A stretch of DNA of 64,000 nt from Candidatus Hydrogenedentota bacterium (GTDB taxonomy: Bacteria > Hydrogenedentota > Hydrogenedentia > Hydrogenedentales > JAGMZX01), in NCBI GenBank assembly GCA_029556545.1, contig JAKQEQ010000056.1, positions 26,951 to 90,950 on the forward strand. The letters are read 5' to 3'. The number at the start of each line of letters is the position of its first letter. Within the stretch, counting starts at the first letter, position 1. Both the position numbers and the translations under genes were made by a program. A model generated the notes under the pieces. It did no database searches and had not been told where the DNA came from. It saw nothing but the letters and a program-made list of their open reading frames with translations. Below, in pieces: positions 31,844-51,681 of this stretch.

Positions 31844-32341
31844 CTATTCCTCCTCCGTTTCCCCCTCATGGCGGCAACCTTTCATCCACTCTACGCTATT
31901 CAGCAATCGCTTCGCCGTCTCGCTGACAGGCCGTCCGTCCGTCGCCAGTTCCTTTCGAATCTCCGCCTCGCTCATCCAGCGGTTGTGTGGTTCACGATGC
32001 ACAACATCCACTGCCTCAGGCCGAATTAACTTCACCTCGAACAACTCCATCGTGTAGGCCGTATCGGACCTGGCGCTCGCGGACCACGCCACGAACTCAA
32101 GGTGGGCGACCGGCCGCGGCGACACCACGAAGTCGATATCCGGCTGTAATCCGAGTTCCTCCGTTACCTCGCGAATAATGCAATCACGGAAGGATTCGCC
32201 CGGCTCAAGATGGCCGCCCACAAGGCTGTAGGCCCGCCACTTGTCATTCCAGCGGGTCAACCATTTCGTGTCGGCTTGATCTTGATATCGAATCAACGCG
32301 ACGGAAGCAATGGATTCTCTCATCGTAGTTTCGTCTACCAT
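31844..32341 (-). CDS. Nudix hydrolase, canonical
   Basis: The protein (about 165 residues) contains a complete Nudix box, GGHLEPGESFRDCIIREVTE followed by ELGL, fitting GX5EX7REUXEEXGU, so it should hydrolyse a nucleoside diphosphate linked to another group. Before it, ESIASVALIRY and KWRAYSLVGGH form the usual first strands. No start has a clear ribosome-binding site; ATG 32341 is my choice, ATG 32323 is possible. The neighbouring leftward gene encodes a Nudix-like protein without the box. Among TIR and SLOG proteins, plausible substrates are NAD-derived or alarmone nucleotides; that is inference. Confidence 0.82.
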   Translation of the reverse strand: MVDETTMRESIASVALIRYQDQADTKWLTRWNDKWRAYSLVGGHLEPGESFRDCIIREVTEELGLQPDIDFVVSPRPVAHLEFVAWSASARSDTAYTMELFEVKLIRPEAVDVVHREPHNRWMSEAEIRKELATDGRPVSETAKRLLNSVEWMKGCRHEGETEEE

Positions 32342-32656
32342 TCGGTGTAACACGTACATTACGCATGCCGCGCGAAGACGCCACACGCATCATTGAGCAT
32401 CCGCCATTGCCTTACCCTTGATCGAGTGGCTGACGAAGACATCGTGGGGCATAGGGTTCTATTTCCCGTGGCGCTCACAACGGAGCCGATAAACAGGATA
32501 CCTCCGGACGCAAACTGATACGTGCCGTGATTCTGGCGGCTCTACACATCCAATGTCCCTTTCGGCACGAAACACCGGCAAGCCTGTTCTGGAAGACACC
32601 GGCTTCGGAACGCCGATCCGCCGGCGCCCGCGGCTCCGTTGCCAAACCACCCGACC

Positions 32657-35996: not shown

Positions 35997-37043
35997 GTGC
36001 ATCCCTATCGGGTGTTTGTAAGCTATTCTCGTGAAGACCGCGAGATGGTTGAGAATCTCGTTATCAGCATGGAGCGTAGCGGCCTGCGACCAGTGTGGGA
36101 CAGGGATATCCGCCCAGGGGACCCATTCTCTGAGGTCATTAAACATGGGATCAGCCATGCCCACGTGTTCATCCCGGTGCTGACCCGCAAGGGCGTGAAA
36201 CGGCCTTGGGTACATCAGGAGACCGGTTACGCGATGGGATTGGAGGTCCCCGTGCTGCCCATCGCCGTCGGCCAAGTCCCCAAACAGATGATCGCCGACT
36301 TGCATGCCCTGGAGGTCAGTCCCGAACTTACGGACCTTGTCGGTGAGGTCCTGGCTGAGGCAATCGAGAGTCTGCTGAATCGCGAGCCTCAAGAATCGGA
36401 GGCGACGTTCCGCGCCGCGCCGCTGCCCGAGATGCGTGCTGAACTGCTCGCCCGCTACACCCGCCAGGCTACGAAGCTCAATCCCTTTGGGCATGCCTTT
36501 GGACCCATGCGCCAAGCGGGGGCGCTGTCGTCCTTCTGTCTTCCCAAGGACCCGCCCGATCACCCGGTCTGGGTGTTGCGCGACGGCAGGCTGCCCCGCA
36601 GTAAGTTCCTCTATGAACGCCTGCAGAAGGAAAGGCTTGCTTTTGAGGAATATGTACGGGGGCATGGGTGCGACCTCATCCTGGATCCGTCAATTCCGTT
36701 CGAGCAGAACGGACCCGAAGCCCGCAAGCAGCGCCTGACGACCCTGTTGGAGTTTCTCAAAGACGAGAGCATCCAGAATGTGCAGGTGGCCATTCGGCCA
36801 CGCCAGGCGGCCGGCAGCCTGACGATCTGTGGGGACTGGTTCAGCGCCGAGTCGATAGCCCCGCGTCCGGGAGAAGGCTATTGGGGTACGATCTTCAGTT
36901 GGCATGCTCCCACGGTGTTGCGGAGACTTCACGAGTTCGAAAGTGATTTTGCCCGGATTCTAGAGAGCTCGGGCGTGAACGGTGCGGCTTCCAGGGAAGC
37001 CGCCATCCGTGTGGTGGAAGAGCAACTTGCGGCGACCGAATAA
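35997..37043 (+). CDS. TIR-domain protein
   Basis: The 348-residue protein starts at GTG 35997 with GAGGGAA upstream. Residues 4-130 are a TIR domain: YRVFVSYSREDREMVENL, WDRDIRPGD (BB-loop region), and the WxxxE pair Trp71/Glu75 (RPWVHQETGY), whose Glu is the NAD-glycohydrolase catalytic residue in active TIRs. The C-terminal 200 residues are unrecognised; GDWFSAESIAPRPGEGYW and FSWHAPTVLRRLHEFE look like a folded alpha/beta domain that may couple threat recognition or a second activity. It probably cleaves NAD or makes a cyclic ADP-ribose signal. The coding frame stays open after its TAA stop (see 37044-37259). Confidence 0.85.
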   Translation: MHPYRVFVSYSREDREMVENLVISMERSGLRPVWDRDIRPGDPFSEVIKHGISHAHVFIPVLTRKGVKRPWVHQETGYAMGLEVPVLPIAVGQVPKQMIADLHALEVSPELTDLVGEVLAEAIESLLNREPQESEATFRAAPLPEMRAELLARYTRQATKLNPFGHAFGPMRQAGALSSFCLPKDPPDHPVWVLRDGRLPRSKFLYERLQKERLAFEEYVRGHGCDLILDPSIPFEQNGPEARKQRLTTLLEFLKDESIQNVQVAIRPRQAAGSLTICGDWFSAESIAPRPGEGYWGTIFSWHAPTVLRRLHEFESDFARILESSGVNGAASREAAIRVVEEQLAATE

Positions 37044-37319: not shown

Positions 37320-40300
37320 CTATTCGGCTGCGCCAGGCGTTGCCGTGTTTCCCGTCTCTTGCGAGTCATGTTCCGCACTCCACGCCTGGAATGCGGTCAG
37401 AATCATGGAAGCTTTTTCCGCTGGCAGTGTGCTTGATTCGATGCGCATGCCAACAATGCCCGCTGGAAACTGGTGCGTACGCACCTCCTCGCCATTCCAG
37501 ATAACGACAACCTTTTCTTTGTTCGCCGTATCGCTAATCGCTTTGTAGCAAAGATCAAAGCCAGGATCATGTTGCACCATGGACCAATCCCAGCCCTGCC
37601 ACGCAAGCAGGACGTCACCCTGCGCTATTCCTGCCTCCATGGCGGGTGTTCCGGCAAACACTTCCGTAACCGTTAGCGCCGGAATAACATCCGGGACCTC
37701 GTTGCCGACCAGGTCCCAGTATTTCTCCTGAGTGCGCGTCCCTCTTGCGTCATAAGCGTATGAGATCCGCGCATAACCGTGCCGATTAAGGCATGGCTCG
37801 CCGTCCACGTCGAAATAGGCCACGCGGATTACGCTGCCGCGCGCATCGTATTCCGCGGTCTCCGCCGCGTATCCATCGTTACGGAGGCATGGTTCGCCGT
37901 CCACGCCGAAATAGGCCACACGGGTCCGGTTACCGCGCGCGTCGTATTCCGCGGTCCACCCCGCAACTCCATCTCTGTGGAGGCAGGGCTCGCCGTCCAC
38001 GCCGAAATAGGCCACGCGCGTTTGGTTGCCGCGCGCGTCGTATTCCGCGGTCAACCCCGCGTATCCATCTTTGTGAAGGCAGGGCTCACCGTCCACGCCG
38101 AAATAGGCCACGCGCGTTTGGTTGCCGCGCGCGTCGTATTCCGCGGTCCACCCCGCACTGTTCAGGACGCTGACCAGGATCAGTCTCCCATCAACACCAA
38201 AGAAGGTGCGGTGTATTTCGCTTCCGCGCGCGTCGTATTCCGCGGTCCACCCGGCATTTCCATCTCTGTGGAGGCATGGCTCGCCGTCCACTCCGAAATA
38301 GGCCATGCGGGTTCGGTTGCCGCGCGCGTCGTATTCGCCGGTGCACCCCGCAACTCCATCTCTATGGAGGCACGGTGCGCCGTCCACACCGAAATAGGCC
38401 ACGCGGGTTTGATTTCCATACTTATCGTACTCCGCGATGCACTCCGCATAGCCGTCTTCGCTCAGGCACGGCGCACCGTCCGCGTCGAAATAGGCTTCGC
38501 GGGTCCGGTTGCCGCGCCCGTCGTATTCCGCAGTCCACCCCGCTTCTCCATCTCTGTGGACGCAGGGCGCGCCGTCCGCGCCAAAATAGGCCACGCGGGT
38601 CCGGTTACCGCGATCATCGTATTCAGATCGGAGTTCCGCATAGCCGTCCTTGACCAGGCAGGGTTCACCGTCCACGCCAAAATAGGCTTCGCGGACCACG
38701 TTGCCGCGCCCGTCGTATTCGGCGGTCCACCCCGCTTCTCCATCTCTGTGGACGCAGGACGCGCCGTCCACGCCAAAATAGGCGTGGCGGATTAGGTTGC
38801 CGCGCGCGTCGTATTCGGCGGTCCATCCCGCATTTCCATCTCTGTGGAGGCACGGTTCGCCGTCAACGCCGAAATAGGCCACGCGGGTCCGGTTACCGCG
38901 CCCGTCGTATTCCGCGGCCCACCCCGTGTATCCATCTTTGTGGACGCAGGGCTCGCCGTCAACGCCGAAGTAGGCCGCGCGGGTCCGGTTACCGCGCCCG
39001 TCGTATTCCCATCGGAGTTCCGCATAGCCGTCTTTGCTCAGGCAGGGTTCACCGTCCACGCCAAAATAGGCTTCGCGGATCACGTTGCCGCGCCCGTCGT
39101 ATTCGGCGGTCCACCCCGCTTCTCCATCTCTGTGGACGCAGGGCGCGCCATCTACGCCAAAATAGGCGTGGCGGATTACGTTGTCGCGATCGTCGTATTC
39201 GGCGGTCCACCCCGCATTTCCATCTCGATGGCCGCAGGGCTCGCCGCGCACGCCAGAATAGGCCATACGGGTCCGGTTACCGCGCGCGTCGTATTCAAGT
39301 CGGAGTTCCGCATAGCCGTCTTTGACCAGGCAGGGTTCACCGTCCACGCCAAAATAGGCTTCGCGGATCACGTTGCCGCGCCCGTCGTATTCGGTGGTCC
39401 ACCCCGCTTCTCCATCTCTATGGACGCAGGGTTCGCCGTCAACACCGATATAGGCCACGCGGGTTCGGTTGCCGCGCCCGTCGTATTCGGCGGTCCACCC
39501 CGCAATTCCATCTCTATCGAGGCATGGTTTGCCATCCACGCCGAAAAAGGCCGCACGGGTCCGATTTCCATACTTATCGTATTCCGCGGTCCACTCCGCA
39601 TAGCCGTCTTCGCTCAGGCACGGCGCGCCGTCCGCGTCGAGGTATTTCTCCCTATTCGTGTTGCCAACGGAATCGAAGGCCATCTCGGCTACCGCAAAGC
39701 CTTTCTCATTCGGCCAAGGAGTCCCCTGGAGGCTAAGCCACTCGCATCGGCTCAAGTTTCCTGCCTCGTCATAACGGTAACGAACACCGGCCAGGCCGGT
39801 CTTCGTGGCCGTCGGTTTACCCTCTTGGTCGAGGTAGACGGCCTGTACTATCCGTCCGAGTTCGTCGCGCGTGTAACGCAGACCAAATAGGCCGTCCCCG
39901 TCCGGCACGGGTGTGAGACTGCCGACACCCAGGTAACGCGCCTCCTTGACAAATCCCGTGTCGGCGAAGACCAGCCGATGGCGCCCGATAGAACTCTTCG
40001 TACCGCCGGTTCTGCTTCCGGCAACGTTCAGACCGAACGCCCCGAACTGCATCGAGGTGGTGGCGCTTTCCAACACGACGCTTCCGCATTGTTCATCTCG
40101 GAAATCGAGATAGCAATATGCTTCCTCTCCCGGCTTGCGTGTCATCGGACGCTCGATCTTCTGCCGGACAAGCACCCTGTCGTTAAGGTCGAGGTAGTCG
40201 CGCCCAATCAGCGCCCCCCCATCGTCATAGTTGAAGCGTTGTATCATCGGTCGGTCGAGACGCTCGGCGTCGCGATGCGGCACGGGCGTTCCCGCGCTGT

Positions 40301-41066
40301 TCTCGTGGATGACGCGCTGCAGCCTGCGATACTGCCGGACGAAGTGGTAATGCGCGTTGCGTCGGGCAAGCCGTTCCCTGCTCAGCGGAAACAAGCCCTC
40401 GGGGATGAGATCCCGCTCGACATAGTCCGCGTAATAGGCGTGTTTCGGCACATAGTAGTCCCACGCGAGCCACCCGGAGAGGGCCATCGCCGCCAGGCAG
40501 ACTATGGCCACAGCGGCTTGGGTCAGCCGTCTCTTGCGTTCGCGGCGTTTGTGGCGGTTCCAGAGCTGGTCGAACTTGATACCGAGAATGGCGGCGACGA
40601 TCTTGACAAGCGCCTCTTCGGGCGCGAGTTCTTCGAGAGACGCACCGAGTATGACATCGCTCGTGTTGCGCAGGGCGGGCGGGTAGCACTGCCGGCCCGG
40701 GGCCTCGGCGTCGGGGGCGCCTTCCACGATGAAGGGGATGACGCGGTCGCCCCGGCCCATCGCCTGGAAATGCTGGACTTCCCGGTTAACCCATTCGGAC
40801 TGCGCGCTTTTCGGAGAGCACACAACAATCAGATAGCGCGAGTCCTGCAATTCGCGGCGGAGCGACCTTTCGAGCCCCCCCAGCCCGATGTCGGTCCGGT
40901 CGCGAAACACGGGCCGGACGTGCTTGGGCAACGTGCTTCCGGTTTCCTTGCGCAGGGCGCTGGGCAACCGGTAGGTTTCCAGTCTCTTGTGCAGCCACGC
41001 GGCCCACTTCTCGTCCTGCCGGCTGTAACTGATGAATGCGTAGTACTCGAACCGTTCCGTCGTCAT
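37320..41066 (-). CDS. Membrane-anchored TIR protein with about 22 YD-type repeats and a PDZ domain
   Basis: This 1248-residue protein has a TIR domain at residues 5-165 (YYAFISYSRQDEKWAAWL; Trp92/Glu96 in SEWVNREVQ form the WxxxE motif). A basic stretch and one transmembrane helix near 183-207 follow. Residues about 395-1125 hold about 22 copies of a 32-residue unit of the type YDARGNRTRVAYFGVDGEPC plus LHRDGNAGWTAE. A PDZ domain ends the protein (VTEVFAGTPAMEAGIAQGD, then VLLAWQGW). With TIR inside, repeats and PDZ would be in the periplasm: a receptor that turns an envelope signal into NAD cleavage. This is inference. It is leftmost in a same-strand run and 130 bp after the YbjN-like gene. 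It starts at ATG 41066. Confidence 0.82.
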   Translation of the reverse strand: MTTERFEYYAFISYSRQDEKWAAWLHKRLETYRLPSALRKETGSTLPKHVRPVFRDRTDIGLGGLERSLRRELQDSRYLIVVCSPKSAQSEWVNREVQHFQAMGRGDRVIPFIVEGAPDAEAPGRQCYPPALRNTSDVILGASLEELAPEEALVKIVAAILGIKFDQLWNRHKRRERKRRLTQAAVAIVCLAAMALSGWLAWDYYVPKHAYYADYVERDLIPEGLFPLSRERLARRNAHYHFVRQYRRLQRVIHENSAGTPVPHRDAERLDRPMIQRFNYDDGGALIGRDYLDLNDRVLVRQKIERPMTRKPGEEAYCYLDFRDEQCGSVVLESATTSMQFGAFGLNVAGSRTGGTKSSIGRHRLVFADTGFVKEARYLGVGSLTPVPDGDGLFGLRYTRDELGRIVQAVYLDQEGKPTATKTGLAGVRYRYDEAGNLSRCEWLSLQGTPWPNEKGFAVAEMAFDSVGNTNREKYLDADGAPCLSEDGYAEWTAEYDKYGNRTRAAFFGVDGKPCLDRDGIAGWTAEYDGRGNRTRVAYIGVDGEPCVHRDGEAGWTTEYDGRGNVIREAYFGVDGEPCLVKDGYAELRLEYDARGNRTRMAYSGVRGEPCGHRDGNAGWTAEYDDRDNVIRHAYFGVDGAPCVHRDGEAGWTAEYDGRGNVIREAYFGVDGEPCLSKDGYAELRWEYDGRGNRTRAAYFGVDGEPCVHKDGYTGWAAEYDGRGNRTRVAYFGVDGEPCLHRDGNAGWTAEYDARGNLIRHAYFGVDGASCVHRDGEAGWTAEYDGRGNVVREAYFGVDGEPCLVKDGYAELRSEYDDRGNRTRVAYFGADGAPCVHRDGEAGWTAEYDGRGNRTREAYFDADGAPCLSEDGYAECIAEYDKYGNQTRVAYFGVDGAPCLHRDGVAGCTGEYDARGNRTRMAYFGVDGEPCLHRDGNAGWTAEYDARGSEIHRTFFGVDGRLILVSVLNSAGWTAEYDARGNQTRVAYFGVDGEPCLHKDGYAGLTAEYDARGNQTRVAYFGVDGEPCLHRDGVAGWTAEYDARGNRTRVAYFGVDGEPCLRNDGYAAETAEYDARGSVIRVAYFDVDGEPCLNRHGYARISYAYDARGTRTQEKYWDLVGNEVPDVIPALTVTEVFAGTPAMEAGIAQGDVLLAWQGWDWSMVQHDPGFDLCYKAISDTANKEKVVVIWNGEEVRTHQFPAGIVGMRIESSTLPAEKASMILTAFQAWSAEHDSQETGNTATPGAAE
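37750..39660 (-). repeat. 96-bp tandem coding repeats
   Basis: About 20 tandem units of 96 bp encode the 32-residue YD-type repeats. Motifs such as CCGTCCACGCCGAAATAGGCC recur at about 96-bp intervals (for example near 37800, 37896, 37992, 38088). Neighbouring units are highly similar and some non-adjacent blocks look duplicated, which points to expansion by recombination. Confidence 0.85.
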
Positions 41067-41196
41067 GCTGCTCTCCCTGTCACACGCGGAGCGCCACGAT
41101 GATCTGCCCGAATTCGCGTTCCCGAGGCGTCGACAGGGATCTAGCCGCAGGCATGGCGTAACTCGTCATGAAGGAAAAGTGCGGACCAAGCTCCCG

Positions 41197-41748
41197 CTAG
41201 ATGCTGTCCAGATTTCCTGGGTCGGAGGTTGGGCCGCTCGGGCCGTGCCCGGTGATCTTCTTGAGCAAGGCGCGCAGCGCCGGGGGAAGACCGCCGCCCG
41301 TCGTCGGATCTATTTCTCCCGGATCCTTGCCCGTGTCCTTGGCCTGACCGATTCGGACGAAATTCATGTCAACCGCCATCGCGAAAAGGCGGAACATGTG
41401 GTTGAATTGAGCCTGCGTGATTTGGCCGTCCATGATCATCGCATCGGCATAGGCCATGATTTCGCCGTCGCTTGGGTCCCATCCGAACTTGACGAGACGA
41501 AGCTTGAAATTGATGGCGCCGAGGACTTTGAGCACTTCGGCCAGATTTGGGTGATCCGGTGGGCACTGCAAGTAGTATAGCGTGCGACACTGCAAGAAGG
41601 TCCCGTTGTTTTCCAGGGCGAGGATGAACTGGTAACGTCCGCACAGCCCCTGCATCCCAAGCATGCACGCCGGTCGATTTGGATCGACGAAATACTTCAG
41701 TTGTTCGCTGTCCAGGTACTTCTTCAGCAACTCGATAGTCATTGCCAT
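41197..41748 (-). CDS. YbjN-like protein
   Basis: The 183-residue protein starts at ATG 41748 with AAGGAGA 8-9 bases upstream. The fold pattern MTIELLKKYLDSEQLKYFVD, then LALENNGTFLQCRTLYYLQC and ILGAINFKLRLVKFGWDPSD-like strands, matches the YbjN/type-III-chaperone-like superfamily, small alpha-beta proteins that bind partner proteins. The C-terminal 40 residues are Gly/Pro-rich and probably disordered. It sits 61 bp after the Clp-like ATPase gene in the same direction, so it may be an adaptor that delivers substrates to that ATPase or holds the TIR protein inactive. Both roles are hypotheses. Confidence 0.68.
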   Translation of the reverse strand: MAMTIELLKKYLDSEQLKYFVDPNRPACMLGMQGLCGRYQFILALENNGTFLQCRTLYYLQCPPDHPNLAEVLKVLGAINFKLRLVKFGWDPSDGEIMAYADAMIMDGQITQAQFNHMFRLFAMAVDMNFVRIGQAKDTGKDPGEIDPTTGGGLPPALRALLKKITGHGPSGPTSDPGNLDSI

Positions 41749-41809
41749 AACGCGAATCTCCTTCGTTGTTCGGCCTCTCGGCGTGTCCGCTGCCAGGGCC
41801 GTGGCCGGT

Positions 41810-44065
41810 TCAAAGCAAGCTGATGATCAGTGCATCGTCCTCCCGATGCCGCGCGGCGTACCCCGAAAATGTGTCAACCTCTGATGAGGCCGGGTTCTCC
41901 AGTATTCTGAGGTGTATCGCTGTAATCCCGTCGAATTCGCCCTGCGCCTCGGCGACCGCAAGCTGTTCTGAGATGCGATTGCGCAGAATCGTGGTCAAGT
42001 GCCTGACACCAAAACGCGGCTGCCATTGATGCGTAAGACGTTCCACCAGCCTCGGCTCCCAGTCCAAGTGCAACCCTCTGGTTTCCGAGGTTTCGCGCAG
42101 CGCGGCGAGTTGAAGTTCGACGATGGACTCGACGGCCTCGTGCGAGAGCCCCTGAAAGAGAAACTGATGCGATATTCTCCCCATGAACTCCTCGCCGAAG
42201 CCCGCTCGCTTCAAGCCATGCGCCAGCGCTTCGGCGTCCACCGTCGGACGGTGCTTGGCCTGTTTCGTGTCATCCACAAAGCCAATAGTGCGGCCGCTTT
42301 CATAGGTGCAGCCGACATTCGTGCAGAAAATCAGGATGGCCCTGCGAAAATCCAGCGTGTTTCCGTCCATATCCTCCGTCCGGCCTTCATCCATGATTCG
42401 CAGGAGGATTTCGCCAATGCCGGGGTCGGCCTTCTCCAGTTCGTCGAACAGTACGATGGCTTCGGGCAGGTCGCGGATTTTGGAGAGAAGCCCGCCTTGC
42501 CCGCGCGCGTAGCCCACGTATCCAGGAGGAGCGCCAAGCAGGCGATTGACGACGGGGCTGCTGTCGTACCCTGATCCTTGCAGCGAATTGCAGTCCACAC
42601 GGATAAGATGTTCTCTCTGGCCGCCGCCCAGTATCCGCGAGAGCAATACCGCGGTTTCCGTCTTCCCCACACCCGTTGGCCCGGCAAACAGAAACACCCC
42701 GCGCGGCCGCCCGCCCCTTCTCCAGTTTCCGAGGGTCGCGACGAAAGCCGTGGCGATTTCGTGTAGGACGTGATCCTGGCCGATGATCTTGGCCCGAAGT
42801 TGATTATAGACCTCGGATTCGGACAGCGCTTCCGTTCGGACGATGCCGTGCCCGACGATGTCTTCCAAAGCCAGTTTGAGCGCCGCTTCCGTCAATGTCG
42901 GCAATGGCGGTTCGCTGGTGGCGCAGTAGGCGCACGCCTCGTCGAGCAGTTGAATCGACTTGTCCGGCTGATAGCGGCCGGGAAGGTACTCCTCGGTCAA
43001 TTCGACCACGCGTTGCTCGATGCTTTCCGGGAAACCAAGCGGGGCGTAGTACTCCTTCATCTTGGGAATTCGCGCCTGGAGAATGTGGACGGTGGCTTCA
43101 GCCGACGGCGAGGAGAGCCGCAGCAGGTTGAAACGGCGGGCCAGCGCCTCGTCCGGCTCGATATGATGCCTGTACTCCGACGGCGTCGTGCATCCGATAC
43201 ATACGATTTCTCCGCGCCCGAGCACCCCCTTGAACGCTTCGTTGGCGTCGGAGAACGGGCCCCGCGAGTAAACGCCGCTCTGGAAAAACGAGTGAATTTC
43301 ATCCACAAACAAAATGACGTTGGGATGCGCCTGGAGAATCTCCAGGAGCGCCTTCACCCGCTCTTCGTATTGCCCGACCACGGAGGCCCCGGAACGCAGG
43401 AAGACCGGGGAAAGCTCGAAGAGGTCCGCATCGCGGAGTTGCGGCGGAATAATGGGGTCGCCGCCCGCCAGGCGCCGCGCCAGTTCGTATACCAGGGCCG
43501 ACTTGCCCGTACCGGGATGCCCAATAACGATGACATTGCGGCGGCGCATCTTGGCGAGGTTGCGGATCAGCGCGCGCAACGGCGTGTCAACGTTAACCAT
43601 GTGGCTGCGGGGCAGTTCGACCGCCGTCAGCATGCGGCCATAAGCGCTCAGGGCCGCTACGACCTCCTCACGCTCCGGCGTCTGCCGCCACGCCGGTCTG
43701 CGCTGAAGCAAGCGCAGCGCCTCATCGACGGCAGTTGGAGACATGCCCCGGCGGCGAAGATACTCGCGGCCCGGCTCACTCGCCAGCAAGGCCGCCAACA
43801 ACTCCTCCGCAGTTATGGGATGGGAAGAGCCCGACAACCCGCGCAACACCGGCTTGAGCGCTTCCGCCACCGGTACCTTGTCCGGCGGCGTGTCGTTCCT
43901 GGGGACAGGCTCCTCCAAATAGGAGGACAACTGCGGCAGCTTGTTCTTCAGGCCGCCGTGGAAATACAACGCCGACATCAGCAGGGGCACATCAAGAGAC
44001 TCGCTTGCCCCCACAGTGCACTTGGCGACATCCAGCGCGGCGCGGCACTCGCGGTCAAGATTCAT
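41810..44065 (-). CDS. Clp/Hsp100-type double AAA+ ATPase
   Basis: This 751-residue protein has an N-terminal Clp-like helical region (residues 1-140). AAA+ module 1 has Walker A GHPGTGKS (182-189) and Walker B ILFVDEIH (251-257). Module 2 has Walker A GPTGVGKTE (462-470), GAPPGYVGY (511-519) and Walker B IVLFDELE (537-544). A D2-small domain ends the protein. There is no long coiled-coil middle domain, so it is nearer ClpA/ClpC than ClpB, yet I see no ClpP-docking loop with confidence and no clpP nearby. It should unfold or remodel proteins. Translation is coupled to the small upstream gene, whose stop is 2 bp before this ATG. It is probably the power unit of the conflict operon. Confidence 0.9.
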   Translation of the reverse strand: MNLDRECRAALDVAKCTVGASESLDVPLLMSALYFHGGLKNKLPQLSSYLEEPVPRNDTPPDKVPVAEALKPVLRGLSGSSHPITAEELLAALLASEPGREYLRRRGMSPTAVDEALRLLQRRPAWRQTPEREEVVAALSAYGRMLTAVELPRSHMVNVDTPLRALIRNLAKMRRRNVIVIGHPGTGKSALVYELARRLAGGDPIIPPQLRDADLFELSPVFLRSGASVVGQYEERVKALLEILQAHPNVILFVDEIHSFFQSGVYSRGPFSDANEAFKGVLGRGEIVCIGCTTPSEYRHHIEPDEALARRFNLLRLSSPSAEATVHILQARIPKMKEYYAPLGFPESIEQRVVELTEEYLPGRYQPDKSIQLLDEACAYCATSEPPLPTLTEAALKLALEDIVGHGIVRTEALSESEVYNQLRAKIIGQDHVLHEIATAFVATLGNWRRGGRPRGVFLFAGPTGVGKTETAVLLSRILGGGQREHLIRVDCNSLQGSGYDSSPVVNRLLGAPPGYVGYARGQGGLLSKIRDLPEAIVLFDELEKADPGIGEILLRIMDEGRTEDMDGNTLDFRRAILIFCTNVGCTYESGRTIGFVDDTKQAKHRPTVDAEALAHGLKRAGFGEEFMGRISHQFLFQGLSHEAVESIVELQLAALRETSETRGLHLDWEPRLVERLTHQWQPRFGVRHLTTILRNRISEQLAVAEAQGEFDGITAIHLRILENPASSEVDTFSGYAARHREDDALIISLL

Positions 44066-44067
44066 GC

Positions 44068-44307
44068 TTACACCATGCTGTTGAAGACAATCGGCAGGAC
44101 AGCGGCGACATGTTCAGCTTCCATGACAACGACAGGAAGCTCCAAGTCCGAAACTACGGCCTTCTCACTTGGATTGCGGTAACTACCCCACTCTGAGTAG
44201 GCCCGCGACGGGGCCACGTTTTCCACCTGCTCCCTAGTGTTGACCCACTTCTCCGGACTGAGAACCGTCGCGTCTTGGTAGACCCATCTCTCCGGCTCGT
44301 AACGCAT
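44068..44307 (-). CDS. Small conserved-looking protein ahead of the Clp-like gene
   Basis: The 79-residue protein starts at ATG 44307 with AAGGAGGAAGG upstream, a strong ribosome-binding site. Sequence MRYEPERWVYQDATVLSPEK, then WVNTREQVENVAP and LELPVVVMEAEHVAAVLPIV. No family recognised; acidic, without membrane segments. The TAA is followed by GC and the ATG of the Clp-like gene, so the two are translationally coupled and probably work together, for example as a substrate tag or inhibitor. Promoter candidate at 44384-44413. Confidence 0.6.
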   Translation of the reverse strand: MRYEPERWVYQDATVLSPEKWVNTREQVENVAPSRAYSEWGSYRNPSEKAVVSDLELPVVVMEAEHVAAVLPIVFNSMV

Positions 44308-44383
44308 GACGCCTTCCTCCTTCTCGTCTTTCCCCGCTCCCCAAAGTGACGTTGACAGAAGAGAATCACCTCGTCTGCGGGCC

Positions 44384-44413
44384 ATAATGCACAAGCGCCC
44401 CCAAGACAATCAA
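44384..44413 (-). promoter_or_regulatory. Promoter for the small protein/Clp/YbjN/TIR genes
   Basis: On the minus strand TTGATT (44413-44408), 18-bp spacer, CATTAT (44389-44384), about 77 bp before the start at 44307. The 243-bp gap to the upstream gene makes a separate promoter likely. Confidence 0.4.
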
Positions 44414-44550
44414 CCTGGCCGGATTCCCCGGCGGCGCCGGATCTTGCAGGACATCAAGCCGCGACCGCCCGTTCGGTTCAGGGAGGGCCGCGCCTTCCAG
44501 ACCAGCGCTGACGCGGGCGTCCTCCCGTCCTCCGGCGTTTCCGTCATGTC

Positions 44551-47343
44551 TCAACCTACTTGTTTGTTCGGATCGTAAATCTCGTAACCCGCATCGGCCA
44601 ACTGCTGGGGAATGTCATCGACGGCCTGATAGTCATACTTCTTCACGTCATCCGGCAGGTCGCGCCACGAAACGAGGTAGGGCTGTTTCTTCTTCTCCTC
44701 GTCTTTTACCTCGCCGTAGGTCCAGCCTTCCAGCAAACGCTCGGTGTTCCAGCGCCCGTGCTCCATCTCCGCCAGGATATCTTTCTGCGCGTCGTCGAAG
44801 TCGAACAACTTGGGCGTGCCTTGGGTGACCTTGCGCAGCCGCAGGCCCAAGCGGCGAAGCTTGGTCTCGATGTGGTCCACTTGGGCAAAGTTGGCGCGAC
44901 GGTATGTTTCCTTCAGCGTTTCCCAGTTCGCCATGGGGGGGTGTTGCTGGAGATATCGTTGCTCCTGGTTCTTCTTGAACGCTTCGTGCGCATGGCGCGC
45001 CATTCTCTCCCGCTCTTCCGGTGCAATCATCGTCGAAGTCTCCGGAGGCTGTAGGAAAGCGTTCAGGGTCTCCTGATCCGTCGGCATGAGAAGCAATCGC
45101 TTGCTGTCCTTCCAGTCCGCATCCTCAGCGATTTCCGTGGCCTCGCGGCCACTGTCGCGCAGGATGGCGGTCTGGGCGCCCATGACGAGCGCGAGCCGAT
45201 ATTCAAACGCGGAAATGACGCCGCCGTTGATGCCCAAGAGCCGCACGTCGTCGGGCCGGACGCCGGTCATGAGCAGGTCTATCCAGACTTGGATCGGGTC
45301 CAGGGGGCTGTAACCGGCGTGGTCGGTGATGCGGAAGAAGGCGTATCCCGGGTGCTTCGTGTCGCCGGCGGGAAGATGGGACGGCAGATAGGCGATCTTG
45401 GTGATTTCGCCATCGGGATCGGGGACATCGCCGACGATCCCGGGAATACCCGCCGTGGTGCCGCCGGAAATGATGGTTCCCTTGAATCCGGCAAAGGCTT
45501 GGCGGATGAGAAGCCCATATTCCTCGATGCGGGCCTGCACGCTTGCGTCACAACCGCCCGCGACGATGACAATGGGCAGGTCCTTGTTGAAGAGCGCCTC
45601 AGCGCCAGGTTCAGTGCTCGTGGCCAGACAGGTCCGTCCATCGATGTCTTCGTCGGCACAACCAAGCCACTTCTCCGGGGCTTCCGCCGCCTTCGTTGTG
45701 ATTTCCTTGAGATACGTCTGGGCTTCTTCAGCGGCGGCGGCGGCTTTTCCTGCTTCCTCGCGCGCCTTCTTGAGCTTCTCGCCGTCGGGGCCGTCTTTCA
45801 GTCTCGCGAGCTTTTCGTCCGCCTGTTTCTTCTTCTCGATAGTCTCATCAAGTCGACTGCGCGCTTCCGCTTCAAGTGCGCCCAGTTTGGCTACAATCGC
45901 CGCGGACAGGAACCAGCGCGCCCACTTCAGATGTTCAACGAGGCCGCTCTTCCGTCCTGACACGGCCAACTGGATTTCATCGAGCGCGCCGCGGACCTGC
46001 GTGATGACCGTCTCCGTGGGACTCAATTGTACGGCTTTCGCATAGGCCGTGAGGCTCGCGTAGGGATGGCCCAAGAGCAGGTGCATGAAACCGATGTCAT
46101 ACCACGCCCACGGCAGGTGCATGCCATATCGCGCGCGTTCCGACGATAGTCCAATGGCCTCCTCGAGATTGGGTCTGGCAAGAGACAGGAAGCCCATATT
46201 CTTGTTCTCGATCATCTCACACCTGATGTAACAGACAAGCGCGCGGGGATGTCTTGGGTCGGCCTGAAACGCCTTTTGGTATTGCTTGAGCGCCTGACGC
46301 CGATCCCGTTCCTCCTCGTACGTATCCCCGAGGAAACAGAAGGCGTCTGCGTCGTTCGGGTCTAGCTGCGTGGAACGCTCCAAGTGTGCGCGTCCCGCCG
46401 GGTTTCCCGTTCTCCAAAGCGCCCATCCAAGGTCGCGCTGCACTGCGGCATTGGACGATTCCGCGAAGTCAGCGAGGCTCTTGACGGCCTTCGGCCAGTC
46501 CTCGATGGCCATCGCAAGACGGGCAATCTGGTAAGCCAGTCCTTCGGAAGTGTCGTGTTTGCGCACGACCTCTAGAAGACTGATTTCTTGCCGAATGTCT
46601 CCGGGCTGCATGTAGGCGCCGAAACAGGATCGATACGTGCTGACGCCGTCCAGCATGCGAACAAAGGCATTGTCCGCGTCCTCGAGCAACGCCGCGATTC
46701 TGCCGGCCTCGCGCTCCAAGTGGCGCGGCTTCTTCTTCAAATCCGTCTTATATAGGTTGTCGTGGACGAGGTCCGCCCAAGCGTGTTGCAGCAGCGTTCG
46801 TACTTGTATTTCGGCCTTGAACTTGGGCCCGGAAGCCAAGCCTTGCGCCTGGGCTTCCTCAGCGCTTCGGCGTTCCAGAAGCGCCGGCGCCACGGCCTCA
46901 AGCCCGGGATATATCACATCCTCCCTGAACGAGACCGTAAAGTGTACTGATTGATATCCGAACTCATGGGCTTGAAGCCTGTCCGCAACGTCTTCGCTGC
47001 TGGATTCCTCGATTTCAAAGTGCCGCCTAATGAATTGACTGATCGGGTCAATCTTGTCAGTGGATTCCACAATCACGCGCACGCCACAGAGATCGCAGAA
47101 CTGGAAGGCGGGTTGAGGATACTTCTCGCGCTTTCTCAGACACTTCTCCGCGAAGCTCGGAACAGTCTTGACCCGCCCCTGCACGATGGCGATGACGCCA
47201 ACGTCCTGCGCAGCCCGCTCGAGTACTGCTTTCAACGACCGGCAGAAAGTCTCGTAGTGGGGTAGAAGCTCCTTCGCTGCCGCGACTTGTCTATCCACGA
47301 AATCCTGATCCGACTGTCTGTCCTTCCGTTCATCGCTCGACAT
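44551..47343 (-). CDS. RelA/SpoT synthetase-TPR-SLOG-RyR fusion protein
   Basis: This 930-residue protein starts at ATG 47343 with AAGGAA 8 bases upstream. Residues about 25-215 are a RelA/SpoT synthetase fold: GRVK (56-59), FCDLCGVRVIV, HEFGYQSVHF (126-135), AEIQVRTLLQHAW (178-190). There is no HD hydrolase. TPR repeats cover 265-440 (WALWRTGNPAGRAHLERSTQ) and a Lys/Glu/Ala coiled coil 490-560. A SLOG/LSDAT Rossmann domain covers 589-770, with loops AGGCDAS and ISGGTTAGIPG. An RyR domain covers about 857-915 (HGRWNTERLLEGWTYG). Plausible action: the SLOG/RyR part senses a nucleotide and switches on synthesis of an alarmone that arrests the cell. The pyrophosphate acceptor is not readable. 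Confidence 0.85.
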   Translation of the reverse strand: MSSDERKDRQSDQDFVDRQVAAAKELLPHYETFCRSLKAVLERAAQDVGVIAIVQGRVKTVPSFAEKCLRKREKYPQPAFQFCDLCGVRVIVESTDKIDPISQFIRRHFEIEESSSEDVADRLQAHEFGYQSVHFTVSFREDVIYPGLEAVAPALLERRSAEEAQAQGLASGPKFKAEIQVRTLLQHAWADLVHDNLYKTDLKKKPRHLEREAGRIAALLEDADNAFVRMLDGVSTYRSCFGAYMQPGDIRQEISLLEVVRKHDTSEGLAYQIARLAMAIEDWPKAVKSLADFAESSNAAVQRDLGWALWRTGNPAGRAHLERSTQLDPNDADAFCFLGDTYEEERDRRQALKQYQKAFQADPRHPRALVCYIRCEMIENKNMGFLSLARPNLEEAIGLSSERARYGMHLPWAWYDIGFMHLLLGHPYASLTAYAKAVQLSPTETVITQVRGALDEIQLAVSGRKSGLVEHLKWARWFLSAAIVAKLGALEAEARSRLDETIEKKKQADEKLARLKDGPDGEKLKKAREEAGKAAAAAEEAQTYLKEITTKAAEAPEKWLGCADEDIDGRTCLATSTEPGAEALFNKDLPIVIVAGGCDASVQARIEEYGLLIRQAFAGFKGTIISGGTTAGIPGIVGDVPDPDGEITKIAYLPSHLPAGDTKHPGYAFFRITDHAGYSPLDPIQVWIDLLMTGVRPDDVRLLGINGGVISAFEYRLALVMGAQTAILRDSGREATEIAEDADWKDSKRLLLMPTDQETLNAFLQPPETSTMIAPEERERMARHAHEAFKKNQEQRYLQQHPPMANWETLKETYRRANFAQVDHIETKLRRLGLRLRKVTQGTPKLFDFDDAQKDILAEMEHGRWNTERLLEGWTYGEVKDEEKKKQPYLVSWRDLPDDVKKYDYQAVDDIPQQLADAGYEIYDPNKQVG

Positions 47344-47409: not shown

Positions 47410-50400
47410 CTACATTATCCTAAAGCACCCCCTGAGCGCTATCGCGTCGAATTCATTCGGCTGCTCCTCTCGACTCCCGCGGCAACCGTTCACGGAGCAT
47501 GGGAAGCACACTTGGTAGACTCCTGGATTTCGAGGTATGGAACCTCGATATTGCGGGAGGTGATAAAGGGTGTTTCGGGACTCGTGTACGGCGGGTTCCC
47601 AAATCTCCTTGTCGCGGGCGACCGCCTCCTCATGCGCGCGGATTTCCTCCTTGGTCGCCCGCGGATACTCGAAGAAGTCGCCCTGGCCCGGACGGGTCGG
47701 CTTCCGTAGCGCGAACCGCTCGTCCTGGGGCTTGTCAAGACCGTGCCACCAGTGGTATAATCGGTTACGCGAGAGGCCTTCAGGCGTCACCCGTCTACTT
47801 GTAAAGGACTGTGGTCCGGTCTGAAGGCCTTTCGTGATCAGGTTTCTGTTCGTGATATTGTGATCGTGGTAGAAGTCCAGAATCTCCGTCCCATCCTTCA
47901 GCTCGAAGACGCTCAACGTCACGAACACCTGTTCCCCATCCAGTACGGCGGGCGCAATGTAGGTGTGCCAATACTTAATATTGCGATACTTTGCCTGGTC
48001 GTGTTCTACTTCAGTGGCAATTCGTACGGCGCGGCGGAGCAGTTCCGGCAAGCTGGCGACCGCGCGCATGATGCGCGGGTCCGCGCTGTGGGTTAGCGGC
48101 TTCTTGAACTGCTTCATGCTGAACCCGATCCGCCGCCCGTCGTGGTCGTTGACGACTTCCGTGCCCACCAGCTTCCGAAACGCCTCCTTGCCCATTTCCC
48201 GCAGCCGTTTCGGGTCGTGCTTATCGCCGAACGCGGAGGCGTCCACTTGGACGGGCCGCATGGTCTGGAGTTGGTTCCGCAGGCGGGCGCGGGCTTTGAG
48301 GTCCGGAGCAGGCATCGCGCCCTTGCTGTAAACCGACGCCTCGACCCGATCCCCTTCACCCTTCACCCTTCTCTCTTCACCCTTTCCCTCGGCCAGTCGC
48401 CACGCCTGCTTCACGAGCCCGGCGATCTCCTGGTCGGAGAACGCCTCGACGCCCGCGCCTTCCCAGACCGGCGCCAGCGTGCGGCGGACCGCCGCGGTGA
48501 ACCGCTTCCACCACCCGAGAATCCCGGAGAACTCGCCGCGCGTCACGCGCCACGCGAGCCATTCCTCAGCCGCGCGCAGTTGCGCCGCCGGCGTCACGAT
48601 CGGGTGTCCGTGTTCCTTCGCCCACGCCCGGATTTCCCCGTTCCGGGTGTGCCACAACTGGCCGAACCAATGCTTGTACGTCTCGGCCCCGAGCACGCTC
48701 CGCAGGCCCCAATGCCCGATGACCTCGTGCCACGCGACCTTCACCACGTCGCGCGCGCGGCGCATTTGCCCCGCAACCAGATAGACCGTATCGGGCGCGC
48801 CGTCCTTGGCGGGCGTGAACAGGCCCCACGCCCGCGGATGCCGGTAGCCCTCGGGCAGCCCGTCCGCCGTTTCGACCACGACCATCCGCGGCGCGCCCGG
48901 CCAGGCCGCGCGCAGTTCCCGCACGACCTCCTCGACCTCGCGCACGCGCATCCCGCCCTCGGGCCGCGCCGATTCGCTGAGCCGGCCTTCGGTGTCACGC
49001 GGCGCGGGCCGCGTCTCGCCGGTTGCCGCGTCGTATTCGATCCGCGCGCCCGGCGGGACGGCTTCCCGTTCCGTGGCGGAAAGGTGTTCCCGCTCCCACT
49101 TGTCAAGCGCCGCCCGATCGGGTATACTATGTTCTGGAAGCTCACTGGCCGCGACCTTGAGCCGTTCGTGCTCCCCGGTGACGGTGTGGGCTTCTTCTCT
49201 TTTCCTTTGGTAGGCTTGTTCTTTTTCCCTCTTCCACGTTGCAATCTGCCCCAAGTTGGCGGGGTGCGCCGTTAGCAATAGATGGACGGGTCTATTCTGG
49301 CTGATCGCATCAGGCTGAATGGCGACAACGATCGGCTTCCCGTCCACAAGCAGGTCGGTGACGAGAGAATATCGTCCGTGTTCCTCCCGAAACACCGCGA
49401 CGGGATCGGCAATGGCCGCGGGGAGCGCCTCTACGATCTCGCGGGAAAGCTGATGTTTGCGCCCGCCGATCTTGCGCATGACGCGCTGGGAAACCACCAA
49501 TGGCGCATTGCCCGCGCCGAGCATGCGCAGCCAACTCGGCGCGTTGCTGAGCCGGACCATGTCGCCCTCGCGCAACCGTCCGGAATCATATAAGGCCATA
49601 CTTGTTTGCCGGCCCAGTTCCTCCGCCGCGGTCAAGCCCTCCCGCACCGAGAAGCGTTCCCCGGTATCCTCCTCCCGCCCTGCCGGCGATTCGTCCGATC
49701 GGTCCGATTCGTCCGATACCCTTCCCCCTTCACCCTTCAGCCTTCTCCCTTCACGTCCTCCTCCTTCTCCTCGGTCTCGAGTGCGGCCTGCGCCAGCAGG
49801 CTCAGCCGGCTCGGCTTCCCTTTCGCCAGTTCGGCCAATTTCTCCTTGTACCCCTTCATCGAGGGCGAGTTGTCGGGGTTCTTGGCTCCGTCGTTGTTCG
49901 GTTTCACGTTGGACGATCTCCAATAGTTCGCGCACGGTGGTCTCGGGCACGCTCTCGCCGAACAGGCTTTCGGTCGTGGTATCGACCGCGCCCGCGAGTT
50001 CGACGTACCGGTCGAGGAACGCGCGCACCGCCGCCGCGCTGGTCCGGCTGTTGAGTTCCCGCATCAGTATAAGCGTTTCCGCCGCCCGTTCGGTAGCGAA
50101 CATGTCTTCTTGCGCCAGGTATTCGCCGAGGTTGGCCACGCGCCCGGCCGCGGCTTCGTGTTTGTACGCCATGAGTTCGGCGAGGGCCTGGCCCAGGAAC
50201 CGGGACAGATCGAGCGGCGGCTTGTCTTGCGCCACGCGCAGCAGGTTCCCGCCGCTGGCCATGATCCCGTTCACGATGCGGACCAACCCGAGGGGCTCGG
50301 CCTCTTCGATGGCCTGCGCTATCGTCTCCCGGCTTACATCGGCACGGCGCAGCACGAGCGCCAGCACGGCGCGCCGCACACGGGCCGCGGCGCCGGGCGT

Positions 50401-51066
50401 GAATCCGCCGTCGGACGTCCGGAGGTGTTCCGCGCCGGTCTCGCGTACGAACGCGAGCATGAATTCGCGGTTGCTGGCCGCGTGCACGTTCCCTTCGGCG
50501 TCGGGCCGCCACAGCCCCATGAGCTTCTTTTCTTCGAGCACCGCGGCGTCCGCGCCGGCCTGTTCGGCTTCGGTCATCTGCAAGACTTGCGGCCGGTTGC
50601 TCAACTCGGCCACGCGCCGGATGCTTACGCCGCCGGTATCGGTCATGCGCCGCACGAGCACCGGCTGCTTCATCGCCTCGGCATCGAGCCCGAGCCCGAG
50701 TTCGCGCGCCCGTGCGATGACGGCCTTCCGGTACGCAGCCGCCTTCCGGGTCGCGTAGGCCTGGCGCAGCCCGAGCACGCGCCCGTTCCCGCTCACGACC
50801 TGGCCGTGATCGTCGATCATCGGCGCACCCACGTCCGTGGTCGGGGCATCCGTGAGCCGGCTGAAATCCGGCGCGAGCGCGATGCTCGCTATCTGTTCCC
50901 GGCTCGACTGGGTGTTCCGGTTCCGTTCCTGGAGGCGTTGGTCGTAGCCTTCATCGCTGCTGGTCACGAGCGTACCCGCATCCACGACGGCCCATGCGCC
51001 GGCGACCCGGACGTCGCCCTGTGGCGTCACAGCCTCCCAACCGCCCTCGGGTTTTTCGCCGGTCAA
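47410..51066 (-). CDS. Polyvalent protein of a phage or conjugative element, possibly 5'-truncated
   Basis: About 1220 residues. Near the N-terminus is a ddrB-ParB-type domain (AWAVVDAGTLVTSSDEGY, then IDDHGQVVSGNGRVLGLR). A disordered Glu/Arg/Gly region follows, then a MuF-C-like segment (KHQLSREIVEALPAAIADPV), a zincin with HEVIGH (VAWHEVIGHWGLRSVLG), and an LPD3-like C-terminal part (DHDGRRIGFSMKQFKKPLTH). Such multi-domain polyvalent proteins travel with phage or plasmid DNA to protect it on entry. The frame is open to 51420, but beyond 51070 it is antisense to a small gene with its own promoter; TTG 51066 is only the best guess for a start. It carries intergenic-type repeats in frame. 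Confidence 0.72.
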   Translation of the reverse strand: MTGEKPEGGWEAVTPQGDVRVAGAWAVVDAGTLVTSSDEGYDQRLQERNRNTQSSREQIASIALAPDFSRLTDAPTTDVGAPMIDDHGQVVSGNGRVLGLRQAYATRKAAAYRKAVIARARELGLGLDAEAMKQPVLVRRMTDTGGVSIRRVAELSNRPQVLQMTEAEQAGADAAVLEEKKLMGLWRPDAEGNVHAASNREFMLAFVRETGAEHLRTSDGGFTPGAAARVRRAVLALVLRRADVSRETIAQAIEEAEPLGLVRIVNGIMASGGNLLRVAQDKPPLDLSRFLGQALAELMAYKHEAAAGRVANLGEYLAQEDMFATERAAETLILMRELNSRTSAAAVRAFLDRYVELAGAVDTTTESLFGESVPETTVRELLEIVQRETEQRRSQEPRQLALDEGVQGEIGRTGEREAEPAEPAGAGRTRDRGEGGGREGRRLKGEGGRVSDESDRSDESPAGREEDTGERFSVREGLTAAEELGRQTSMALYDSGRLREGDMVRLSNAPSWLRMLGAGNAPLVVSQRVMRKIGGRKHQLSREIVEALPAAIADPVAVFREEHGRYSLVTDLLVDGKPIVVAIQPDAISQNRPVHLLLTAHPANLGQIATWKREKEQAYQRKREEAHTVTGEHERLKVAASELPEHSIPDRAALDKWEREHLSATEREAVPPGARIEYDAATGETRPAPRDTEGRLSESARPEGGMRVREVEEVVRELRAAWPGAPRMVVVETADGLPEGYRHPRAWGLFTPAKDGAPDTVYLVAGQMRRARDVVKVAWHEVIGHWGLRSVLGAETYKHWFGQLWHTRNGEIRAWAKEHGHPIVTPAAQLRAAEEWLAWRVTRGEFSGILGWWKRFTAAVRRTLAPVWEGAGVEAFSDQEIAGLVKQAWRLAEGKGEERRVKGEGDRVEASVYSKGAMPAPDLKARARLRNQLQTMRPVQVDASAFGDKHDPKRLREMGKEAFRKLVGTEVVNDHDGRRIGFSMKQFKKPLTHSADPRIMRAVASLPELLRRAVRIATEVEHDQAKYRNIKYWHTYIAPAVLDGEQVFVTLSVFELKDGTEILDFYHDHNITNRNLITKGLQTGPQSFTSRRVTPEGLSRNRLYHWWHGLDKPQDERFALRKPTRPGQGDFFEYPRATKEEIRAHEEAVARDKEIWEPAVHESRNTLYHLPQYRGSIPRNPGVYQVCFPCSVNGCRGSREEQPNEFDAIALRGCFRIM
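48351..48391. repeat. CCCTTCA tandem repeats inside the polyvalent gene
   Basis: CCCCTTCACCCTTCACCCTTCTCTCTTCACCC-type 7-bp repeats, in frame, encoding a Lys/Gly/Glu/Arg-rich linker (GEERRVKGEGDRV). The same kind recurs at 49718-49760. Confidence 0.6.
49691..49760. repeat. Composite 9-bp and 7-bp repeats inside the polyvalent gene
   Basis: Three 9-bp units (TCGTCCGAT, CGGTCCGAT, TCGTCCGAT; 49691-49717) encode SDESDRSDE on the minus strand, followed by CCTTCACCCTTC-type repeats. The 9-bp unit, read on the other strand as ATCGGACGA or ATCGGACCG, differs by one base from the intergenic unit at 63822-63848. Confidence 0.6.
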
Positions 51067-51079
51067 GACCCGGTCGGAG

Positions 51080-51108
51080 TTGATTTTGGCCTTATTTTCT
51101 GGTATAAT
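51080..51108 (+). promoter_or_regulatory. Strong sigma-70-type promoter
   Basis: TTGATT (51080-51085), 17-bp spacer, consensus TATAAT (51103-51108). Start of transcription would be near 51115, with GGAGTGAG and then the ATG at 51128, so the leader is very short. The promoter lies within an A+T-rich patch. Confidence 0.65.
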
Positions 51109-51127
51109 TTTACTGGAGTGAGTAGAG

Positions 51128-51370
51128 ATGTCACTAACACCTAAAGACTTAACCCCGGAAGAAGCCGCCCCCCTCTCGGACCGCGAGGTCGGCGCGCGCG
51201 TGATGTCGTCCCGCACCTTCGACGAGCTTAAGGCGCGGCTATCGGAGACTGGCCATTGGGACGAGTCCAAGGTTCCAGGTTTGGAACGGATCGGCCGGGC
51301 CACGCGGGAACTGGGGCTGCCGGTTCCAGCGGCGATGTCCGAGTTGTCTAAGCGGAACGCTTTGGTGTAG
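51128..51370 (+). CDS. Small acidic protein with its own promoter
   Basis: The 80-residue protein MSLTPKDLTPEEAAPLSDRE, then VGARVMSSRTFDELKARLSE and so on. It has a near-consensus promoter, GGAG 9 bases before the ATG, and normal protein composition, while the opposite frame there is Ser-rich and shadow-like. No family is recognised; size and charge would suit an antitoxin, an excision or copy-control factor of the mobile element, or an anti-defence protein. It lies between the polyvalent gene and tRNA-Arg, divergent from the former. Confidence 0.6.
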   Translation: MSLTPKDLTPEEAAPLSDREVGARVMSSRTFDELKARLSETGHWDESKVPGLERIGRATRELGLPVPAAMSELSKRNALV

Positions 51371-51556
51371 ATTATGTCTTGCCATTCTTTGTAGCGGTCC
51401 GCGATCTCCCGGATGAACATCCCACACCCGCCTGAGCTACGGCTGATTGGTCTCGAATTGGCCTATAGCCGGAAAAACCCCGTGGCCTAAATTTGGCCTA
51501 CGACACACCACTTGAGGGCGCTTCAGTCCACTCAAGGGCAGATACCCCAAAACGAC

Positions 51557-51604: not shown

Positions 51605-51681
51605 TGGCGCGCCTGGTGCGACTCGAACGCACGACCCACGGCTTAGAAGGCCGTTGCTCTGTCCACCTGAGCTACAGGCGC
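51605..51681 (-). tRNA. tRNA-Arg, anticodon TCT
   Basis: The minus strand folds as a complete cloverleaf: acceptor GCGCCTG/CAGGCGC, D arm GCTC/GAGC, anticodon arm ACGGC-CTTCTAA-GCCGT (anticodon TCT), T arm GTGCG-TTCGAGT-CGCAC, discriminator G and encoded CCA (51607-51605). A terminator follows. tRNA 3' ends are common attachment sites; a polyvalent mobile-element gene begins about 500 bp away on the 3' side. I did not find a second copy of the tRNA 3' end in the window. Confidence 0.95.

Follow-up and report, generated by a model that had tools for sequence, protein, structure and literature searches.

A SLOG- and RyR-bearing alarmone synthetase with a recurrent NUDIX neighbour as a putative nucleotide-controlled switch in bacteria

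Five genes on the minus strand of the window, i.e. the whole stretch of 64,000 nucleotides analysed here, raise the question whether they act together. A sequence-only reading had tentatively joined them into one immunity system, in which a TIR-PDZ protein gives the signal, SLOG and RyR domains read it, a RelA/SpoT-like synthetase arrests the cell and a Clp-like ATPase with a YbjN-like protein resets or licenses the complex. All five genes are real and lie where that reading had placed them (Table 1). Is this set a system that recurs in other genomes, or does the synthetase have other partners?

Table 1. Features of the window between 29.5 and 51.7 kb, with the domains of the RSH protein listed below its gene.
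Feature	Coordinates	Strand	Evidence or remark
TCAD9 and TPR-S protein of ternary-complex conflict systems	29502..31736	+	left end of the putative island
NUDIX hydrolase, different subfamily	31844..32386	-	23.6 bits vs 110-212 for the linked family
Second TIR protein, WxxxE motif	35997..37043	+	Pfam
TIR-TM-32-aa-repeat-PDZ-like protein, 1248 aa	37320..41066	-	TIR_2 2e-15; WxxxE motif with E96
YbjN-like protein, 183 aa	41197..41748	-	YbjN 1e-11
ClpA/ClpB-like double AAA+ ATPase	41810..44065	-	two AAA+ modules, ClpA 1e-102
Small protein, 79 aa from ATG at 44307	44068..44307	-	no known family
RSH synthetase-TPR-SLOG-RyR protein, 930 aa	44551..47343	-	Pfam, AlphaFold model, fold matches, alignments
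Alarmone synthetase (SYN) domain, aa 20-224	46672..47286	-	alignment, SAS1/SAS2 fold matches
TPR superhelix, aa 245-480	45904..46611	-	Pfam, AlphaFold model, fold match
TRPM-type SLOG (LSDAT) domain, aa 588-768	45040..45582	-	family Pfam, alignment, fold match
RyR Repeat12-like domain, aa 775-926	44566..45021	-	Pfam, alignment, fold match, PMC13232231
Phage-type polyvalent protein (ddrB-ParB, MuF_C, LPD3)	47410..51420	-	66 bp upstream of the RSH gene
tRNA-Arg(TCT)	51605..51681	-	right edge of the putative island

The four-part architecture assigned to the RSH protein was borne out by Pfam, by conserved residues and by a structural model. The protein matched RelA_SpoT (PF04607, 6e-16), TPRs and RyR (PF02026, 1e-14). 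For SLOG, the window copy reached only a marginal Pfam score (LSDAT_prok, PF18171, 0.037); PF18171 matched 10 of 11 family members, at best with 2e-8. The AlphaFold model, calculated from an 11-sequence alignment, was confident (pLDDT 85.8, pTM 0.78). When this model was compared with known structures, the SYN fold resembled SAS1/SAS2 (Z 14-15, 21-25% identity). CapRel was also among the fold matches, and no antitoxin was recognised, the small ORF next to the gene belonging to no known family. The SLOG fold resembled MHR1/2 of TRPM2 (9jje, Z 15.6; 8e6v, Z 15.1) as well as SLOG proteins of the LOG/Moco-carrier type (1rcu, Z 16.9; Z range 15-17 overall), although a profile search with SLOG among PDB sequences revealed no relative. 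The RyR fold matched the Bt-hRyR_12 chimera 6uhi (Z 15.1, 24% identity) over residues 753-926, and the Repeat12-like domain is therefore complete. Neither a TRP channel pore (Pfam scan and model) nor an effector domain of ThsA (SIR2, TM or Macro; Pfam scan) was found in the protein. PADLOC assigned its RSH part to the candidate phage-defence model PDC-S33. Taken together, profiles, catalytic residues and the AlphaFold model confirmed an SAS1/2-like synthetase, a TRPM2-type SLOG domain and a complete RyR Repeat12-like domain.

Conservation was counted in an alignment of 20 sequences, and for RyR positions in 19 of them, since the protein at L057 is truncated before this domain. The SYN residues R57, K59, D84, R89, FGY128-130, E178 and Q180 were invariant (20/20), and H134 was kept in 19 of 20 sequences; judged by these positions, the catalytic residues of the window synthetase are intact. 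Glutamate E714 of SLOG, which occupies the LOG-like GG+6 position, was likewise invariant (20/20). The SLOG domain may act enzymatically rather than as a sensor. RyR residues H862 and D904 were present in all 19 sequences, W865 differing once. They correspond to H75, W78 and D117 of RyDEP with identical spacing (H+3 W, W+22, +17 D). The position of RyDEP H100 is Q887 in the window copy, and the majority of members have Q, S, N, T or R there. Because this phosphate-contacting histidine is mostly replaced, the ligand may differ from that of RyDEP.

The other four genes were for the most part described correctly by the sequence-only reading. The double-AAA+ Clp-like ATPase and the YbjN-like protein were recovered by their profiles, and the 2-bp junction lies between the stop of the small ORF and the Clp-like start. 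The small ORF has a Shine-Dalgarno-like AGGAGG/GGAGG before its ATG; a 105-aa ORF upstream at the acidobacterial locus L047 has no likeness to it. In the D2 region of the Clp-like protein an IGF tripeptide, judged by eye, might serve for docking of ClpP. For the TIR-TM-repeat-PDZ protein, the TIR domain and the 32-aa repeats stood, and the transmembrane segment was assigned by eye only. The PDZ assignment is weak because the PDZ_6 score (0.001) lies under the family cut-off. The repeat of 96 nt extends over 37673-39799 with 19 register positions and 61-79% identity to the reference copy. Gaps of about 240 bp after the RSH gene and about 130 bp before the TIR-PDZ gene interrupt the row. No strong terminator was detected between the five genes, and a promoter scan, which gave no sigma-70-like sites, was uninformative.

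Relatives of the RSH protein decide whether the set recurs. A contig scan with the single whole-protein sequence gave nothing; with a SLOG-only alignment as the query, relatives were recovered. Full-length RSH-TPR-SLOG-RyR proteins occur in two further genomes of the window's phylum, and the SLOG-only search reached metagenome-assembled genomes labelled Acidobacteria, Proteobacteria, Planctomycetota, Syntrophomonadaceae, Verrucomicrobia, Anaerolineales, Akkermansiaceae and Thermoplasmatota. The family spans at least eight phyla, with 19 loci besides the window, nearly all from draft genomes and some with short flanks. It is rare, occurring in about 1% of the genomes sampled, and patchy: copies were found in 5 of 294 sampled genomes of the planctomycete seed's phylum and in 3 of 288 of the verrucomicrobial one, full-length copies in 2 of 247 genomes of the acidobacterial one (seeds included in each case), and a copy in 1 of 345 sampled genomes of the phylum of G070. 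Among viral contigs no relative of the RSH-SLOG-RyR protein was detected; on plasmids the RelA_SpoT part alone was matched (8 records) and in phages the RyR part alone. In the tree, the window protein shares a group (100/99) with L047, which is acidobacterial, and L049, which is proteobacterial; the remaining two sequences of its own phylum fall elsewhere, which indicates that the gene has moved horizontally. One of the loci, L054 (G053:C167), is titled Nitrospiraceae OTbin.67, yet the genome search places it in the window's phylum. An acidobacterial genome that also has the family encodes a different regulated alarmone synthetase, in which a sigma-54 activator AAA+ module is fused to RelA_SpoT and TPRs (L088:144-3203, G068:C90).

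The sequence-only reading had staked its system on the genes occurring together in other genomes. At this sampling, the combination of RSH-SLOG-RyR, Clp-like, YbjN-like and TIR-PDZ genes was found at 0 of the 19 loci, and neither a Clp-like nor a YbjN-like gene lay near RSH-SLOG-RyR at any of the 19. In nine genomes with an RSH-SLOG-RyR gene, no Clp match rose beyond the level of generic ClpA/B. The one true Clp ortholog in the window's phylum (G053, 46% identity) stands alone among metabolic genes, and a search of 274 genomes from the planctomycete phylum gave no Clp ortholog above 1e-100, a weak negative with no positive control there. No close YbjN relative was present in the window's phylum, and the two relatives of the TIR-repeat/TIR-PDZ protein (G029, G004) each stand alone. 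The five-gene system is therefore unsupported, and the genes for the Clp-like and YbjN-like proteins most likely represent independent cargo rather than parts of a switch.

The conserved partner of the family is a NUDIX hydrolase, which the earlier reading did not consider. A NUDIX gene of one subfamily lies on the strand of the RSH gene at 15 of the 19 non-window loci, including L055, where it is fused to the N-terminus of the RSH protein. At the 14 unfused loci the genes are usually adjacent (mostly <200 bp apart, all within about 2 kb). The linked NUDIX proteins, with an intact NUDIX box, scored 110-212 bits against a model of the linked family, and other NUDIX proteins in six whole genomes reached at most 75 bits; the linkage is therefore not a background effect. 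The PADLOC candidate phage-defence model PDC-S07 matches the NUDIX protein. The window copy has no linked NUDIX, and no member of the linked subfamily was found elsewhere in its genome (best 70.6 bits); four of the 19 other loci likewise have no linked NUDIX. At L052, where an intact NUDIX gene precedes the RSH-SLOG-RyR gene, a second, truncated NUDIX frame follows directly (L052:11021-11365).

Further neighbours recur at a part of the 19 loci: TrkA_N-RyR and AAA-RyR proteins, which both share the RyR domain (6/19 each), DUF4062-STAND proteins (6/19) and TIR proteins (7/19). The AAA-RyR partners include L051:2455-5016, L053:3227-5857, L081:11319-14042, L084:1631-4489 and L087:5478-8267; their N-terminus has no Pfam match and appears ribokinase-like by eye (VTGD...D...GGA).

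The window itself lies in a 6.1-Mb draft genome. Between 29.5 and 51.7 kb, the TCAD9/TPR-S, NUDIX, deoxyribosyltransferase-like and second TIR genes, the five genes, the polyvalent gene and tRNA-Arg follow in this order, with a G+C content mostly below that of the right flank, and the region looks like a defence or mobile island. Neither the second TIR, NUDIX, TCAD9/TPR-S and polyvalent genes nor the tRNA had been part of the earlier reading. The gene at 33589-35658 (minus strand) encodes 689 aa with an N-terminal deoxyribosyltransferase-like match (TIR/SLOG-fold kin) under the Pfam cut-off, possibly a further NAD or nucleoside enzyme in the island. The polyvalent protein gene, beside tRNA-Arg, is a probable remnant of a mobile element. 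A search for an attachment-site repeat of tRNA-Arg found none. In the congeneric genome G001, none of the RSH, Clp-like, YbjN and TIR-PDZ genes has a close relative.

We infer the ligand, the direction of control, the product and the biological role from the anatomy of the protein. RyR-domain proteins bind or hydrolyse 2'/3'cADPR, and most tested RyDEP homologues bind without cleavage (PMC13232231). The MHR1/2 SLOG of TRPM binds ADPR, and hydrolysis by NUDT9H is a proposed off-switch (PMC13143021). An NAD-derived nucleotide would be bound or processed by the SLOG domain in the manner of TRPM2 and by the RyR domain in that of RyDEP, the TPR middle would pass the nucleotide state to the synthetase, and the latter would make a (p)ppGpp-like product leading to growth arrest. 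In most relatives the neighbouring NUDIX hydrolase would destroy the nucleotide and reset the switch; TrkA-RyR, AAA-RyR, STAND or TIR neighbours could be added sensors or further outputs. The window copy is a horizontally acquired variant without the linked NUDIX, and its signal might come from the TIR proteins close by. Its role is probably phage defence or a response to NAD-damage stress, and patchy transfer together with conflict-type neighbours favours immunity over the latter. That an NAD/ADP-ribose-type nucleotide sets the activity of the synthetase via SLOG/RyR, with resetting by NUDIX and a role in one of these two processes, has in our estimation an even chance of being correct. A bolder version would make the family a defence module that is widespread and as yet undescribed: the TRPM2-type SLOG and RyR would read a (cyclic) nucleotide derived from NAD and switch on the synthetase, with NUDIX as the off-switch and RyR-bearing channel-like partners. 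This version is possible, but we regard it as doubtful.

Other explanations were weighed against this putative switch. One immunity system of all five genes could draw on the shared strand, the 2-bp junction between the small and Clp-like genes, the lack of a strong terminator and the TIR genes within 10 kb in 7 of 19 relatives; the absence of Clp and YbjN near all 19 relatives, the isolated position of Clp and TIR-PDZ relatives and the two intergenic gaps make it very improbable. What stands of the immunity reading are the NAD-signal-type sensors fused to an alarmone synthetase in an island of conflict genes. A Thoeris-like pair, in which one of the window TIR proteins makes cyclic ADPR for the RSH-SLOG-RyR protein as effector and the remaining genes are bystanders, is another proposal. 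Two WxxxE TIR genes are indeed nearby, TIR genes occur at 7 of 19 other loci, and SLOG and RyR both bind cADPR or ADPR in known proteins. Defence islands often carry TIR genes, though; the type, strand and distance of the TIR proteins vary among the loci, and 12 of 19 loci have none in the flanks covered, so that we consider such a pair unlikely.

Similarly unlikely is a housekeeping regulator, which would sense NAD breakdown (e.g. through DNA damage or starvation) and tune growth through alarmones. Patchy presence, horizontal transfer, STAND, TIR and DUF4062 neighbours at many loci and the PADLOC defence-candidate matches speak against it, even if the copies L054 and L056 stand alone beside ordinary metabolic genes and the phylum range is broad. 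Finally, RyR might be an eraser as in RyDEP, the protein destroying cyclic ADPR and the synthetase being limited by or coupled to this clearance. The invariant H862/D904 catalytic dyad with RyDEP spacing would fit such a function, but most tested RyDEP homologues bind only and H100 is replaced in the RSH-SLOG-RyR protein; we assign this explanation a low probability too.

If the putative switch operates as proposed, one protein would bring together two major alarm currencies of bacteria, the signals derived from NAD and the alarmones of the (p)ppGpp type, and would link NAD signalling directly to the stringent response; its ligand would then be accessible to simple assays in vitro. SLOG, NUDIX and RyR, which take part separately in the regulation of animal calcium channels, would already cooperate in bacteria, where channel-like TrkA-RyR proteins are encoded in the neighbourhood, and form a prokaryotic assembly of parts known from TRPM2 and ryanodine receptors. 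What prokaryotic RyR domains sense, a question raised by the RyDEP work of 2026, also becomes testable.

The literature search, which did not extend to the primary paper of 2015, gave no account of the RSH-TPR-SLOG-RyR architecture, of the linkage or fusion with NUDIX, or of an alarmone synthetase with the RyR dyad or a TRPM2-type SLOG. Earlier reviews refer to 'alarmone-based immune systems' put forward in 2015 (PMC7824862); the nucleotide-centric and alarmone-based conflict systems of Burroughs and co-workers share alarmones as signal or output and the SLOG family, and the RSH-SLOG-RyR architecture may overlap with those proposals. Like Thoeris (TIR plus SLOG effector), the window has TIR genes near the RSH gene and SLOG in a putative effector, but the RSH protein lacks SIR2 or a membrane effector, and NUDIX instead of TIR is the conserved partner. 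It shares the synthetase fold, the catalytic residues and the lack of a hydrolase domain with SAS1/SAS2 and CapRel-type toxSAS, whereas its control would be exerted by SLOG/RyR and not by an antitoxin or a phage capsid. With RyDEP and the prokaryotic and animal RyR Repeat12 (PF02026) it has the whole Repeat12-like fold and the H-x2-W plus D dyad with identical spacing in common; in the RSH family this domain is fused to a synthetase and the phosphate-contacting H is mostly Q, S, N or T. Animal TRPM2 (MHR1/2 SLOG and NUDT9H) likewise has a TRPM-type SLOG and a NUDIX domain, coupled by fusion or by neighbourhood, and an ADPR-type ligand is expected in both. The output of TRPM2 is a cation channel, whereas the RSH protein combines an alarmone synthetase with RyR and TPR domains, in the window copy without a linked NUDIX.
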